The translations under genes and the position numbers were made by a program. The notes beneath the pieces were generated by a model, which did no database searches, had not been told where the DNA came from, and was given only the letters and a program-made list of their open reading frames with translations. From Methanosaeta sp. PtaB.Bin039 (lineage in GTDB: Archaea; Halobacteriota; Methanosarcinia; Methanotrichales; Methanotrichaceae), in assembly GCA_002067795.1 (NCBI GenBank), contig MVQI01000016.1, forward strand, positions 1 through 40,854: a stretch of DNA of 40,854 bases, given 5' to 3'. How positions within the stretch are numbered: the stretch's first letter is position 1; the number at the start of each line of letters is the position of its first letter. Shown piece by piece: positions 19,957-27,418 of this stretch.

Positions 19957-21348
19957 TCAGGATTTAAAGAATTTCTTTATGTCATCCGCCCTATTTGGGA
20001 TAGTGGTCTCCTTTGATGACCGCCAGGAAGGAACCTTGACTGCGGCCATCTTTAAAGCCTGCTCTTGAGCCTCTTGTGCCGTCGAGGATTCGCCTTGAGC
20101 GTGGTTCTCAGATCCGTCCGGTCCGATGAGAGAGATGGTCTCGTCAAGGCGCCCTGCTGTCTGGACCGATCCAGCGGCGTCTGGCAGGATGTCATCGAGG
20201 CTCAGGTTGAGCAGCCAGAGATCTTCGCTGCACCGCATGGAGCTGATTCCCAAAACCAGACATGCAGTGCCTGTCAGCAGCAACGATGTGCCCATATCCG
20301 GGCCAAGGCCGCCAAATGTGCGGGACCACTGCAAGAGGCCATCCGAATCTGTCCTGATCAGCAATAAGTCCCGGTTTTTGGAGGGGGTCTCTGTCCATCC
20401 GGTAAGCAGCAGACCGCCATCTTCTGTCGTGGTCACCGCCAGAGCTGACTGGTTTCCAGGACCGCCAATGTTACGCGACCAGATCTCATCGCCAAGATCG
20501 CTGATCTTCATGAGCAGGACATCCCTGTCGCCACCCACCTCGGTCCTGCCAGCCAGAACCAGCCCGTCATCGACCCGAACCATCGATAGGGCGGCGGAAT
20601 CGCCATGATCCCCGAAGGTACGGTTCCAGAGGAGAGAGCCGTCCTCGTCAGTCATAACCACATATACATCCTCATCCCCACCGCCGAAAGACCGGCTATA
20701 CCCTGCTGCCACGTACCCTATGGGATGAGGAAGGACCGAGAAGCCCACATCGTCTCCGCTTCCTCCAAAACGCTCAGACCATACGGGCATCCCAAAGGAA
20801 TCGAGCCGCAAGAGCCAGAGGTCTTTGCCACCTGCAGAATCTGAGCGCGTGTAACCGGTTATCACATAGCCGTCGGTCGTCTCTCTTATGGACCAGGCAC
20901 CGTCGCCTGATGATGTCACAAATCCGCCATAGCTGCGCTCCCAAATCAGGCTGCCGTTGTAATCGACCTTGGCCACCCACAACCTCTCCCCGCCGACCGA
21001 GTAGGACTCGGTGCTGCCAGCCAGTACTATGCCGTCTGATACCGTTTGCAGGGCTGTGGCAGAGTCGTCCTCAGATCCCCCCATGATTCGGGACCAAACC
21101 ATGCCGCCGCTGGAATTTATCTTAAGCAGGTAGATGTCGCTTCCCTGGCCCCGCACAGTGTAGCCGGCCGCCACATAATCCCCATCGGGGCAGAGGCCTA
21201 AGGACCACCCGCCGTCTGCATGGGGCCCCCCATAGAGCTGGCTCCACATCAACTGGCCCTGGACACTCAAGACGGATGCTGCAAGCAAAAACAGTATCAG
21301 AAATGACTGTAGAGCTGCCGACGAGGCTCTCGGCCGGATCTTATTCAT
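19957..21348 (-). CDS. Exported beta-propeller-like repeat protein
   Basis: A 463-residue secreted protein. The N terminus has a signal peptide (hydrophobic SFLILFLLAASVLSV, cleavage near VQG). Seven or so repeats of about 50 residues follow, each with 'GGyvlaGyT.s.gaGd.DlwllkiD..G...Ws..fGG', typical of beta-propeller blades seen in archaeal surface proteins. The last 90 residues are Ala, Gln, Glu and Ser rich and end in a Lys-rich tail, with no membrane anchor seen. Role unknown; propellers usually bind ligands or partners at the cell surface. Start ATG 21348: the in-frame extension to 21627 is repeat-derived, low complexity, and would hide the signal peptide. Its upstream region carries a 12-copy 14-bp repeat. 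Confidence 0.8.
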   Translation of the reverse strand: MNKIRPRASSAALQSFLILFLLAASVLSVQGQLMWSQLYGGPHADGGWSLGLCPDGDYVAAGYTVRGQGSDIYLLKINSSGGMVWSRIMGGSEDDSATALQTVSDGIVLAGSTESYSVGGERLWVAKVDYNGSLIWERSYGGFVTSSGDGAWSIRETTDGYVITGYTRSDSAGGKDLWLLRLDSFGMPVWSERFGGSGDDVGFSVLPHPIGYVAAGYSRSFGGGDEDVYVVMTDEDGSLLWNRTFGDHGDSAALSMVRVDDGLVLAGRTEVGGDRDVLLMKISDLGDEIWSRNIGGPGNQSALAVTTTEDGGLLLTGWTETPSKNRDLLLIRTDSDGLLQWSRTFGGLGPDMGTSLLLTGTACLVLGISSMRCSEDLWLLNLSLDDILPDAAGSVQTAGRLDETISLIGPDGSENHAQGESSTAQEAQEQALKMAAVKVPSWRSSKETTIPNRADDIKKFFKS

Positions 21349-21757
21349 GTTTGATTTTTCCCGCTTGCGTTCTTTTTTTTTTCGAAGTAGCCAGTCAAGG
21401 GCAGGTCCATTTTCGAGTTGGTTATGTCTGGTCCTGCCGATATGATCCTGCTGATATGATCTTGCCGATATGATCTTGCCGATATGATCCTGCTGATATG
21501 ATCTTGCTGATATGATCTTGCTGATATGATCTTGCTGATATGATCTTGCTGATATGATCCTGCTGATATGATCTTGCTGATATGATCCTGCCGATATGAT
21601 CCTGTTGATATTATACGGTTCAAACACACCAACTCAGTCGCTCTTCACCTCTTTTGAACGATATTCCCTAACTGCCGAATGTGAGGTATCTTTCAGCCCA
21701 CCAAACGCCACATCTTCATACCCGATCAGCCGATGACAAGAGCATCGCGATTTTCCC
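21349..21757. other. Intergenic region with repeat array
   Basis: 409 bp between the propeller gene and the Cys-rich gene, both on the minus strand. A 14-bp repeat array fills nearly half. The remainder has no ORF with a credible start; ORFs read through the array in two frames are repeat-derived. Confidence 0.6.
21439..21615. repeat. Tandem array, 12 x 14 bp plus partial copy
   Basis: The unit GATATGATC(C/T)TGC(T/C) repeats at exact 14-bp spacing 12 times (21439-21606), with a truncated thirteenth copy. Variation is limited to C/T changes at positions 10, 13 and 14. Each unit holds a short dyad, GAT-ATG-ATC. The array starts 91 bp upstream of the propeller gene start. Fourteen is not a multiple of three, so it cannot code a regular peptide repeat. 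Confidence 0.95.
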
Positions 21758-22555
21758 TCATGAAGGCGGCTCGTGGAACATTACCGATCTCTGCACATCG
21801 AAATCTCCGGCCAGTGAGGTTCTGGAGTCGATCCTGGTCCCGCCAAAGCCACCTTTTCTGGACTGCATGACCCAGTTCGCGGCCGACGAACCGGTCTGGG
21901 CAGTGGAGAAGGATGCCAAGCCCGGGCCAGCGATACTGGAGGATTGCACCATCACAGGCCGCAGCTCTTCTTTAAAGGATGACAGCGCAGTCCCTCGGCC
22001 AATCGCAAAGCCCGACGGGATGAGGACCGAGATCTCCTGGCCAGCCTGCTGGCTGGTGGTTGGTTTGGTTGCAGAGCAGTTGATGCCGCACGACTGTTTG
22101 TCTTCGCAGCTCAGGCTGCCGCAATCCACGCCTGAGCAGTCGGCCGAGGAACAGTTCGCGTCGATGGAAGACATATTGTCGCCCACTCGCCCGTTGCAGC
22201 AGCATGAGATCTGGCTGCAGTTTATTGCCGGCGGTTCTGCTGGCGGCTGTTGTGAATCGGAGTCAACCGTTCTCTTGTCGATCCTCGTCGGATCAGGCAG
22301 CTTTGCCGTGGATATACCAACGCCAAAATCCATATACTGTATCCTTTCAGTGGCTGACGACCCTCCTGCGGAAAGCTCAAAAGTCGCTGCCTCACCGAAG
22401 GTCTGCTGAAGCGAAGATAGGACCTTATTCTCCATGCTGGATGAGCTTGAAGAAGAAATGCTGCCAGGATCAGCCCAAAATCCAGGAGATTTGTCGAACT
22501 CCACGCCCATTGCTATCCCAAATATCACAGATGCCGTTGCCATAAGAAGGAACAT
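21758..22555 (-). CDS. Exported cysteine-rich protein, unknown
   Basis: A 265-residue protein of no known family. The N terminus is a signal peptide (MFLLMATASVIFGIAMG). A Ser-rich stretch follows, then a Gly/Ser-rich globular part, then a Cys-rich segment (about residues 107-161) with eleven Cys in 55 residues, including CCC and spaced ADC/VDC/LSC steps. The C-terminal 100 residues are Ser/Gly rich with few charges. No anchor or cell-wall motif is visible. The Cys cluster may form disulfides outside the cell or bind metal. ATG 22555 is preferred: a TATA box (22589-22600) puts transcription start near 22567, downstream of an in-frame TTG at 22576. Neighbours on both sides are also exported proteins. 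Confidence 0.65.
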   Translation of the reverse strand: MFLLMATASVIFGIAMGVEFDKSPGFWADPGSISSSSSSSMENKVLSSLQQTFGEAATFELSAGGSSATERIQYMDFGVGISTAKLPDPTRIDKRTVDSDSQQPPAEPPAINCSQISCCCNGRVGDNMSSIDANCSSADCSGVDCGSLSCEDKQSCGINCSATKPTTSQQAGQEISVLIPSGFAIGRGTALSSFKEELRPVMVQSSSIAGPGLASFSTAQTGSSAANWVMQSRKGGFGGTRIDSRTSLAGDFDVQRSVMFHEPPS

Positions 22556-22996: not shown

Positions 22997-24151
22997 TCAC
23001 ATCCTCATCTCAAACGGGTAAGGGAAGATCTCAGAGATCATTCTCGTCGTGTAGTCTCCGTCCTCTCCCAGCACCACCAGGATGTCCCTGCCGAACTCAA
23101 AGAGTATCTGGCGCTCGTCTCCAGTAGGCGCAGCAGCCCTTCCGCCAGGGAGGCAGTTGGCGACTGCCCGAATGTTTCCGTCGCCCTCGGATATCGCCTT
23201 GAAGATGGCAACCTTCAGAGCACTTGTGGACAGGCCAAAAAGTGCGTTTTCGACGTTGCAGCCGGAGTAGATCCTGCCTGATGCGGTGAGCACTGCCGCG
23301 CCCACAGAATATCTGGAGTAAGGCGCATAGGCGTTTTGGCTGGCCAGGTGCGAGGCGTTCACCAGCGACTCGATCTCCGATTCGTCAAGCTCAGTCACGA
23401 ACCATCTGCGGTAGAGCTGGTCATACCTCCCATCCTGCATGAGACGCTGCATGCCCTCGTCAATGGACTTCATAAGCTGTGGGTCCCTGACACCGAAGTA
23501 TACAGAGTGCATCTCCCAGGGCATGGCCAGGGCCCTGATGTTGGTGATATTTTGCTGCTTTATCCGAAACCATGTGGTAGAGCTTCCACCCACGAAAGCA
23601 TCGGCATCTCCCCTGAGGATCGCAGAAAGGCCCTCGCCCTCGGAATCGAAAGCCAGGACCTCGATGCCGGTCTTAGCATTCAGCAGGGCCTGAGAGATTG
23701 TTCCGTTCTGAACCGCAACCTTTCTGCCCAGCAGCATGTCTGCGGATCTGATCTCGCAGTCATCCAAAACGAACGTCAGTATATCGAAGGTCCCGTGGGG
23801 TTGGGCTGTGAAGTTGTACTGCTTCAGCCTCTCCTCGGTCCTGACCATTCCGCCGATCACGTCAGCATCTCCCCTCTGGAATGATAGCTGAGCCAAAGAC
23901 CAGATCATCGGCTTTAAGGTCAGATTGAATCCCGCCTCCTCTGCCAGCAGCTGCAGCAGCTCCACCTCAAAGCCGTATGTTGAACCGTTTTCCTCATAGC
24001 TGAAAGGCGCAAAATCGCGGTCGAATACGAAAGTTGCCGAGGATTCATCATCCGCCTGGTCGAGGGTGACGTCAGAGGAGACGAACTCCGCAGATCCGCC
24101 AGCGGCATTGATTATGAATATCAAGACGAGAAATTTCGAGATGAGTCTCAT
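22997..24151 (-). CDS. Exported solute-binding protein fused to a dead cytidine deaminase domain
   Basis: A 384-residue single reading frame with two domains. A signal peptide (residues 1-22) precedes a family 3 solute-binding domain (about 40-255), recognised by FAPFSYEENGSTYGFEVELL, the 'GDADVIGGM..T.eR' motif and the GRYDQLYRRWF end. Residues about 262-384 form a complete cytidine deaminase fold: AYAPYSRYSVGAAVL, then YSGCNVENALFGL, then IFKAISEGDG, ending FPYPFEM. The zinc motif C-A-E is replaced by S-A-L, and P-C-x-x-C-R-Q by P-T-G-D-E-R-Q, so all zinc ligands and the catalytic Glu are gone, while the ribose-binding N-x-E-N is kept. It probably binds rather than deaminates. A TATA-like GAATTTATTC about 25 bp upstream suggests a leaderless transcript. 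No permease or kinase adjoins it. Confidence 0.85.
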   Translation of the reverse strand: MRLISKFLVLIFIINAAGGSAEFVSSDVTLDQADDESSATFVFDRDFAPFSYEENGSTYGFEVELLQLLAEEAGFNLTLKPMIWSLAQLSFQRGDADVIGGMVRTEERLKQYNFTAQPHGTFDILTFVLDDCEIRSADMLLGRKVAVQNGTISQALLNAKTGIEVLAFDSEGEGLSAILRGDADAFVGGSSTTWFRIKQQNITNIRALAMPWEMHSVYFGVRDPQLMKSIDEGMQRLMQDGRYDQLYRRWFVTELDESEIESLVNASHLASQNAYAPYSRYSVGAAVLTASGRIYSGCNVENALFGLSTSALKVAIFKAISEGDGNIRAVANCLPGGRAAAPTGDERQILFEFGRDILVVLGEDGDYTTRMISEIFPYPFEMRM

Positions 24152-25146: not shown

Positions 25147-26310
25147 TCAACTGGTCTCATCTGCGACAGTCGCCGGATAGGCAGCCATAATATCTGCGAA
25201 CGCTGCTGCCACCGTCTCGAGCTCCTCCCACGTCAACTGATAAGTGCTGAGCTTGAACTGCCTTGTGAGACCTGCCTTTATGCCGCAGATCCCGCGATCT
25301 TTCAGGTCGCGATAGAGGAAATAGCGGCCTTTCTTGGCCTGGTTGGATATCTCGTAGAGCCGATCGGAGACAAAGAACATCAGGTCATGGCGGTGGGGCC
25401 GCTCCCCCTGCTGGACCATTCCCAGCTCCTCAAGTCGTGCGGATAGCCAGCGTGCCTTCTCAACCTCCTCCTGCCACCTGGCCACGCGCTCGACTACGTG
25501 AGAGAAGCTGGCCATCATGGTGAGAATTCCAGCACCTCGAACTGTGCATCCAAGGAGCTCGACGTCCTTGTTCTTCTTCATCTTGGATCGGCGGAAGATC
25601 AGGCCGGCGTACTCCTCGCAGACGCCCAGTACCCCGATAGGCCCGGAGCTGGCCATCGACTTGTGCCCGCTGCCCACCAATACGTCTGCTCCAAGATCCC
25701 GGGCGCTAACAGGCATCCTTCCGACAGAATAGGCGCCGTTGACCATCAGCGGTACGCCTTCCTGATGACAGATGTCTGACACCTTCCTCGCATCCACAAG
25801 GTTTCCGTAATTTCCGTCCGGATAGGTCAGGACTGCCATGCTGACCCGGCCGCCCATATCATTGATCTTCTCGATTGCCTCAGCATATCCATCAGGGGAT
25901 ATTATGTACTCCGGCTGTCCGCTGGAAGGGACGAACTCGATGGATAGGCCGGCTCGCTCCGCAGCCAGGATGGTTGTATAATGGGAATTTCCATCGACCA
26001 CAACGTAGTCGCCTCGATCGCACATGGAGTTCATGGCTGCGTACATTCCCTCGCGGGCACCGTGGGTAATCCGAACCTGGTCGATCTTCAGGAACTCAGG
26101 GAGGGCCTGATGCACGAACTCCTCTATCGGCGGATTTCTTATGCGATCCATCTCACCGCCGCAGAAATCACAAACTGAGTAGCCGTCTCCCCACTCAACA
26201 AGGGCTTCCCTGGCTTCTGGCGTAAGTAGCCCGCCTCTTTGCAGTGGGTCCAGGTTTATTTTGGCCACGCTTCTCTTCAAGCATCTGAACTTCTCAAGAT
26301 TATCCGGCAT
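25147..26310 (-). CDS. pscS: Sep-tRNA:Cys-tRNA synthase
   Basis: A PLP-dependent enzyme that converts phosphoseryl-tRNA(Cys) to cysteinyl-tRNA(Cys) in methanogens, the second step of tRNA-dependent cysteine synthesis after SepRS. Family marks are [13 protein letters not shown], the conserved Cys pair in [40 protein letters not shown] and the PLP lysine in [12 protein letters not shown] near residue 219. Length from ATG 26310 is 387. A TTG at 26373 would add 21 residues, but a TATA-like AGTATTAATA centred near 26341 predicts a transcript starting just before 26310, so the shorter form is preferred. SepRS is not in the window. The gene diverges from the GDPD gene. Confidence 0.93.
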
Positions 26311-26378
26311 CAGGAGATCAAAGGGGACGCGCCCGCTATTAATACTTGCCCTGTCGATCTGTAGCCTCCCCAAAGAAA

Positions 26379-26388
26379 GATATAGAAA
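26379..26388 (+). promoter_or_regulatory. TATA box of the GDPD gene
   Basis: AGATATAGAA lies about 20-25 bp before three consecutive ATG codons (26402, 26405, 26408), suggesting a leaderless transcript. It is part of a compact divergent promoter region with the SepCysS gene. Confidence 0.45.
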
Positions 26389-26401
26389 ACCAGGCCACCT
26401 G

Positions 26402-27418
26402 ATGATGATGCCTTATATCATCGGGCACCGGGGAGCTAGGGCGATGGCTCCTGAGAATACCCTGAAGGGACTTCGGGCAGCCTTCGACTGCGGAGCAGAG
26501 CTTGCAGAAGTGGACGTACGTCTGAGTTCGGACGGCTGCCTGGTGCTGATGCACGACGAGACCGTCGATAGAACCACCGGTGGACAGGGCCGAATTGAGG
26601 ATCTGACTCTTGACGATCTCAAGGCGCTCTCGGTGGGAGGAGAACCCATCCCAACCCTGCAAGATGCCCTGTCACTGGCCGAAGCGATGGGGCGATCCCT
26701 GGTCGTGGAGATGAAGGAGGAGGGGCTCGAAGAGCTTATGCTCGAAGCCTTGACAAAGTGCAGGCAGCAGGGTTCCATAGTGGCATCGTTCTACCACAAT
26801 AGCCTCCTCGACCTTCGGGAGCTATGGGAAAAGAAGCGCCACGGCGAGCAGCTTCATACCGGGATCGTCATAGCCTCTCTGCCGATCCGACCGATTGACC
26901 TGGCAGAGAGCGCCCGAGCAGATATGATATTTCCGGCCCGCGTCTCCTCAAGCCTATTCAAGGCCGCTCATCGCCAGGGGATCCGGGTATTTCCATGGAT
27001 CGTAAACCAGGAGGATCAAGCGGCATGGCTCATCAAGCTTGGGGCTGACGGCCTGGTAACAGATTACCCGTGTCGCCTGAGGGCGGTAGCCTCTGCCCCG
27101 CCCAGTGAAACCGGGAAGGAGAACTGCCGCTACTACCCATGCCATCACTTCGGAGAGCAGGACTGCACCCATTGCTTCTGCCCGCTCTATCCCTGCCGGG
27201 ACGACCGGTTGGGAAAGTTCGTCCGGACCAGGAAAGGCAAGAGGGTATGGACCTGCATAGACTGCCGGCTTGTCCACATCCCCCTCGTAGCCAGGTACCT
27301 ATCTGATAATCCCGGCGCCAAACCCGATGAATTGATGAGACTGGTGCCGGAAGGGTGTCAATTCGGAGCTGCTAACGACGCTGGAACTCGTGGATCGATA
27401 CGATCCTTTCAGAAATGA
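26402..27418 (+). CDS. Glycerophosphodiester phosphodiesterase with Cys-rich C-terminal domain
   Basis: A 338-residue protein. Residues 1-230 form a GDPD TIM barrel: the start motif [13 protein letters not shown] (catalytic His), [11 protein letters not shown], the second His in [12 protein letters not shown], and a C-terminal [10 protein letters not shown]. It would hydrolyse glycerophosphodiesters from lipid head groups. There is no signal peptide, so it is cytoplasmic. Residues 242-295 hold an added domain with Cys spacing C-x4-C...C-x2-C-x-C-x4-C...C-x2-C, resembling the cysteine-rich small domain of archaeal proteins (PF04071-like), probably metal-binding. I know of no common GDPD carrying this. 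An in-frame extension upstream to 26261 overlaps the divergent SepCysS gene and is not used. Confidence 0.85.

Follow-up and report, generated by a model that had tools for sequence, protein, structure and literature searches.

A putatively exported fusion of a family-3 solute-binding domain and a cytidine deaminase fold lacking its zinc site in Methanotrichaceae

The locus and its surroundings

The window, i.e. the whole stretch of 40,854 nucleotides analysed here, harbors on its minus strand a gene for a fusion protein of 384 amino acids (ATG at 24149-24151, coding part 23000-24151, stop codon at 22997-22999). A preliminary description of this DNA had placed one uninterrupted frame, joining a signal peptide, a family-3 solute-binding domain and a cytidine deaminase fold, at 22997-24151. 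Frame and coordinates were right, the strand being minus: the single open frame is free of internal stops, and the plus strand read in the same phase is interrupted by stops. The features are:

22997..24151, minus strand: gene of the 384-aa fusion (frame and orthologs)
24086..24151, minus strand: predicted signal peptide, about residues 1-22 (read from the sequence; same pattern in orthologs)
23396..24031, minus strand: family-3 solute-binding domain, residues 41-252 (Pfam SBP_bac_3 and PDB matches)
23828..23830, minus strand: Arg108, kept (alignments)
23585..23587, minus strand: Gly189, replacing the amino-group-binding Asp (alignments; orthologs)
23006..23380, minus strand: zinc-site-less cytidine deaminase fold, residues 258-382 (Pfam, NCBIfam, AlphaFold, Foldseek)
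23246..23257, minus strand: N-V-E-N, residues 299-302, kept (alignment with ordinary deaminases)
23216..23224, minus strand: S-A-L (residues 310-312) where active deaminases have C-A-E, followed by K313 replacing Arg (alignment)
23108..23128, minus strand: P-T-G-D-E-R-Q (residues 342-348) where active deaminases have P-C-x-x-C-R-Q (alignment)
23012..23014, minus strand: Phe380, kept; this C-terminal Phe is invariant in the deaminase fold (alignment; orthologs)

Downstream on the same strand lies a frame of 272 aa that has a signal-like beginning and belongs to no known family, followed, again on that strand, by genes for a beta-propeller-like repeat protein and a PD-(D/E)XK nuclease and by pyrB; the next frame is, by our own reading, a probable pyrI. 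Upstream of the fusion gene are a tRNA-Gly, a DUF1805 protein and an enzyme of the SepSecS family, which we read as a putative SepCysS. Across the contexts compared, neither a conserved neighbor nor a transport operon was found, a common neighbor being limited to close relatives. Since no neighbor recurs elsewhere, the proximity of pyrB/pyrI is not used as evidence. Elsewhere in the window, a 14-base tandem repeat (TGCTGATATGATCT, 12.6 copies) occupies 21435-21611, either ahead of the frame 19957-21627 or translated as part of its N terminus, and a gene at 26261-27418 (plus strand) encodes a glycerophosphodiester phosphodiesterase with a cysteine-rich zf-like domain (PF04071).

Domain architecture and export

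The binding part matches SBP_bac_3 at residues 41-252 (Pfam, E 1e-24), and the deaminase part matches PF08211 (E 5e-13) better than PF00383 (8e-6). Residues 257-382 are assigned to the cytidine deaminase model NF004064 of NCBIfam (E 2e-29, 102 bits vs. a cut-off of 74); passing this equivalog cut-off constitutes an annotation trap, leading to automatic naming as an active 'cytidine deaminase'. The AlphaFold model of the whole chain has a mean pLDDT of 78, with low values in the signal peptide and in the loop 210-215. The two domains are joined by a short linker: helix 242-251 closes the binding domain, and helix 257-272, the first of the deaminase part, comes immediately after it. The complete deaminase fold claimed earlier is borne out by structure prediction: modeled alone as a monomer, this part is confidently folded (mean pLDDT 94.8) and matches tetrameric cytidine deaminases. 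All its top PDB matches in Foldseek are cytidine deaminases (TM 0.80-0.89), headed by the mouse enzyme (TM 0.85-0.89). The solute-binding part matches AncQR, Thermotoga ArgBP and GlnBP and shows the type II periplasmic binding fold (PF00497).

The predicted signal peptide consists of a basic start, a hydrophobic core and small residues at its end, with no lipobox Cys, and signal-peptide-like N termini are read from the sequences of all orthologs. The binding part of the window protein is rich in N-x-S/T sequons (5 observed vs. 0.9 expected, p 0.0005; 2-6 in that of the orthologs), an excess that fits an extracellular glycoprotein. The designation as an exported fusion is supported. The signal peptide would deliver the protein into the space bounded by S-layer and sheath. 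A proteinaceous sheath encloses Methanosaeta cells (PMC6242892), and a periplasm-like space bounded by the sheath is described for Methanospirillum (PMC10593813).

Residues lost and kept in the deaminase part

The loss of all three zinc ligands and of the catalytic Glu, through replacement of C-A-E by S-A-L and of P-C-x-x-C-R-Q by P-T-G-D-E-R-Q, was reported in the preliminary description and is confirmed by alignment. Relative to 82 ordinary deaminase domains, in which 38 columns are conserved at a level of at least 85%, none of the five zinc/catalytic columns (310, 312, 313, 343 and 346) is kept. The replacements are C310S, E312L, R313K (the zinc-sphere Arg), C343T/A and C346E. Among the 33 other conserved columns, 24 are unchanged throughout the six full-length fusions, 6 are kept partly and 3 have changed to similar residues. 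The loss is concentrated on the chemistry columns (0/5 vs. 24/33 kept, Fisher exact p ~0.004, calculated by hand), i.e. the selective loss of chemistry proposed before holds also in numbers. The three Cys ligands are absent from every full-length ortholog, with S310, T/A343 and E346 in their place, and the catalytic Glu is replaced by L312 in all six of these orthologs as well as in both partial ones. The lost Cys residues and the kept N-x-E-N are common to all homologs; none with an intact motif was seen, nor is the fusion confined to one assembly. E346, S310, L312 and K313 are fixed among orthologs at 63-71% identity to the window protein. The fusion protein is predicted to be incapable of deamination by the known mechanism. 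An alternative metal site composed of S, T and E is unlikely, as two orthologs have Ala at the second position.

Several residues of the pocket type (N299, E301, A311 and F380) are invariant among the fusions, including both ribose-contact residues of N-x-E (N299 and E301), and position 305 is Phe or Tyr. E56, Tyr60 and Phe137 of human/mouse cytidine deaminase line the pocket as well. N299 aligns with N54 of the mouse enzyme, for which a contact to the 3' oxygen of the sugar is described (PMC7611903).

Bacterial and animal homotetrameric Cdd, whose active site is shared between subunits (EC 3.5.4.5; mouse 1ZAB/2FR6, B. subtilis 1JTK; NF004064, TIGR01354) share the fold (TM 0.85-0.89), approximately 40-50% identity, N-x-E-N, the C-terminal Phe and most conserved columns with the fusion. 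In contrast to them, the fusion is devoid of the zinc ligands, the catalytic Glu and the zinc-sphere Arg, is placed behind an exported binding domain and is probably extracellular.

A natural dead deaminase fold is found in the C-terminal half of E. coli Cdd, and it serves as a yardstick for what such a fold retains. In the alignment, this half has S-Y-A-E-N at the site of C-N-V-E-N in active enzymes; the ribose-contact Asn and the C-terminal Phe are both missing from it. Its retention of E-N implies that part of N-x-E-N may be kept for structure. The fusion, unlike the E. coli dead half, keeps the Asn and the Phe together with E-N, which favors a kept pocket but does not prove it. The two also differ in placement: the zinc-less domain of E. 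coli-type dimeric deaminases belongs to a cytoplasmic enzyme, in whose chain it follows a catalytic deaminase domain, whereas that of the fusion follows SBP_bac_3.

The solute-binding part and the missing permease

The preliminary description regarded the first domain as a small-ligand binding domain and had missed the loss of the residue that binds the amino group. Arg108 (in T-E-E-R) occupies the position of the ligand-carboxylate-binding Arg of GlnBP/HisJ-type proteins. In these proteins, the Asp of 'TDN' or 'TDS' holds the amino group of the ligand. AncQR, AncCDT-1 and ArtJ carry this Asp, and all fusions have Gly189 there. Given this loss, the binding part of the fusion is no ordinary amino acid binder. 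Among archaeal family-3 relatives, the Asp is kept throughout the stand-alone transport-type clade. The five multi-domain proteins sampled, which contain PAS, GAF or histidine kinase domains, lack it, as does the fusion. The fusion falls outside the transport clade (support 98/97) in a tree of archaeal sequences only that has long branches, so this placement is suggestive.

No polar-amino-acid permease (TIGR01726) scored over the cut-off in 50 Methanotrichaceae genomes, and the seven fusion-bearing ones lack even a weak match; the positive control was found in Methanosarcina acetivorans. The earlier remark that no transporter is adjacent can be extended accordingly to the absence of this permease from every fusion-bearing genome, each of which encodes other ABC permeases (PF00528). 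Taken together, the loss of the Asp, the position outside the transport clade and the absent permease favor a non-transport role. The family-3 proteins of polar amino acid ABC transporters (PF00497; GlnH, ArtJ, AncQR) share fold, family and the carboxylate-binding Arg with the fusion, which differs by Gly for Asp, by the lack of a cognate permease in the genome and by the C-terminal fusion itself.

Exported chorismate mutase-cyclohexadienyl dehydratase fusions, for which a signaling role was suggested, likewise are rare and combine a domain derived from family 3 with an enzyme fold usually found in the cytoplasm (PMC10520331). They are active enzymes, in contrast to the present case, where the deaminase is dead and the key Glu of the dehydratase is missing. 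Glu173, the general acid, is listed among the key residues of cyclohexadienyl dehydratase (PMC10520331); in the alignment to AncCDT-1, no Glu lies near its position (F-V-G-G-S-S-T-T-W-F), and a function of the binding domain as such a dehydratase was rejected.

Further family-3 matches occur in these genomes. The window's own genome encodes a sodium:dicarboxylate symporter (SDF) with a C-terminal SBP_bac_3 domain (L138:1-2235:+, G000:C32) and a 767-aa frame with a Glycosyl hydrolase family 1 match and a split SBP_bac_3 match (L140:208-2508:-, G000:C11). Broken fragments at G017:C105:8875-9148, approximately 46% identical to the fusion's binding domain and containing a stop, are probably a decayed second copy.

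Distribution, selection and origin

The same domain pair was found in 7 of 50 Methanotrichaceae genomes, covering 3 of 11 genera (G000, the genome of the window, G010, G012, G017, G034, G035 and G036, the last with the fusion split across two contig ends). Its full-length orthologs are 63-71% identical to the window protein, and the same architecture and losses recur in six further genomes. One copy resides on the closed chromosome of the cultured strain M. harundinacea 6Ac (G010), at about 832417-833568 on the minus strand; M. concilii (G015) and M. thermophila (G046) lack the fusion. This patchy presence implies a function that is dispensable for the family. Outside Methanotrichaceae no fusion was detected, either in a 394-genome sample of the phylum, where all full-length matches came from this family, or among the best 80 of 547 matches of a genome-contig scan, where fusions came solely from two methanogen MAGs, one of them Methanothrix.

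Both parts are under purifying selection, with constraint on the deaminase part no weaker than on the binding part. Pairwise dN/dS values, which are rough as many dS are large or saturated, amount to 0.09-0.24 for the binding part and to 0.05-0.14 for the deaminase part in all computable pairs but one, the outlier (0.36) being the closest pair (dS 0.11). A long stem leads to a single clade (100/100) of the fusions' deaminase domains, which falls outside that of the CofE-linked deaminases (99/95). Fast change along the stem followed by conservation is the pattern that a change of function would leave. Descent from the family's own intact deaminase, which is fused to CofE, is not supported, the two falling into separate clades. 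In the window's own genome, this intact cytidine deaminase is joined to CofE (F420-0:gamma-glutamyl ligase; Pfam; L002:1489-2640:-, G000:C46 near 21795-22160), and long frames ending in an intact deaminase exist in nearly all genomes of the family (L011-L033).

Possible roles of the fusion

Our preferred reading, held tentatively, is that of a Methanotrichaceae-specific exported pseudoenzyme, i.e. an extracellular protein that binds, senses or captures a ligand and is neither an enzyme nor a classical transport subunit. After export, the deaminase fold would oligomerize, probably into a tetramer as its relatives do, and so present several binding domains; the emptied active site might still hold a pyrimidine nucleoside or a similar ligand, and the solute-binding domain's state could be coupled to binding there. 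The extracellular nucleoside sensor of the preliminary description stands as far as the exported fusion, the loss of chemistry and the missing transporter are concerned; nucleoside binding by the deaminase part is a point that we only infer. The fusion contains no transmembrane or signaling domain and offers no visible signal route. The more specific model of a tetrameric protein with two ligands, in which the zinc-stripped deaminase acts as a nucleoside receptor, either controlling four solute-binding domains or being read out by them, is rather unlikely. A link to BmpA-type nucleoside binding proteins was considered and dropped owing to their inconsistent presence: they occur in four fusion-bearing genomes and not in G000, G010 and G012.

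The main rival, a serious one that we judge somewhat unlikely, is a pure oligomerization scaffold, with the deaminase fold merely clustering four solute-binding domains outside the cell and binding nothing itself. The nearest relatives by fold and sequence are indeed tetrameric deaminases, PF08211 is the better Pfam match, and E. coli Cdd demonstrates that a zinc-less domain with E-N can exist naturally. However, the ribose-contact Asn and the C-terminal Phe that this domain has lost are invariant here, and the fixation of E346 and S310, at the third and first ligand positions, seemingly exceeds the needs of a scaffold.

A binding subunit of an uptake system, whose permease would belong to another family and lie at another locus, is improbable. 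It would agree with the signal peptide and the solute-binding fold, with the PF00528 permeases in every fusion-bearing genome and with the symporter fused to a family-3 domain in the window genome, but the usual family-3 partner permease and a conserved adjoining transporter gene are both absent, the amino-binding Asp is lost and a bulky domain is attached.

New chemistry is quite improbable as well, be it zinc-free catalysis by E346, S310 and K313 in the emptied site or an enzymatic solute-binding domain resembling cyclohexadienyl dehydratase. We know of no zinc-free chemistry in a cytidine deaminase fold, the second ligand position varies between T and A, and a counterpart of the dehydratase Glu is lacking, as described above. 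The invariance of E346, S310, L312 and K313 across orthologs speaks for it, as does the precedent of family-3 domains turned into enzymes (PMC7683729, PMC10520331).

An assembly or sequencing error, or a pseudogene in decay, as a draft assembly and an odd architecture might suggest, is ruled out for practical purposes by the low dN/dS and by the recurrence in seven genomes, which include a closed chromosome.

Significance

The fusion is a new domain architecture built from known parts, and no description of it was found in the open-access literature, which is a weak negative. It represents a clear natural case of an exported enzyme fold that has been stripped of its chemistry with nearly everything else held fixed, and its fused binding domain has itself drifted from amino acid binding. 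With a cultured host of closed genome, M. harundinacea 6Ac, the question is testable. If nucleosides are bound, the fusion would be a compact, ready-made nucleoside-binding module and would show that aceticlastic methanogens, which depend almost entirely on acetate, sense or capture nucleosides outside the cell.
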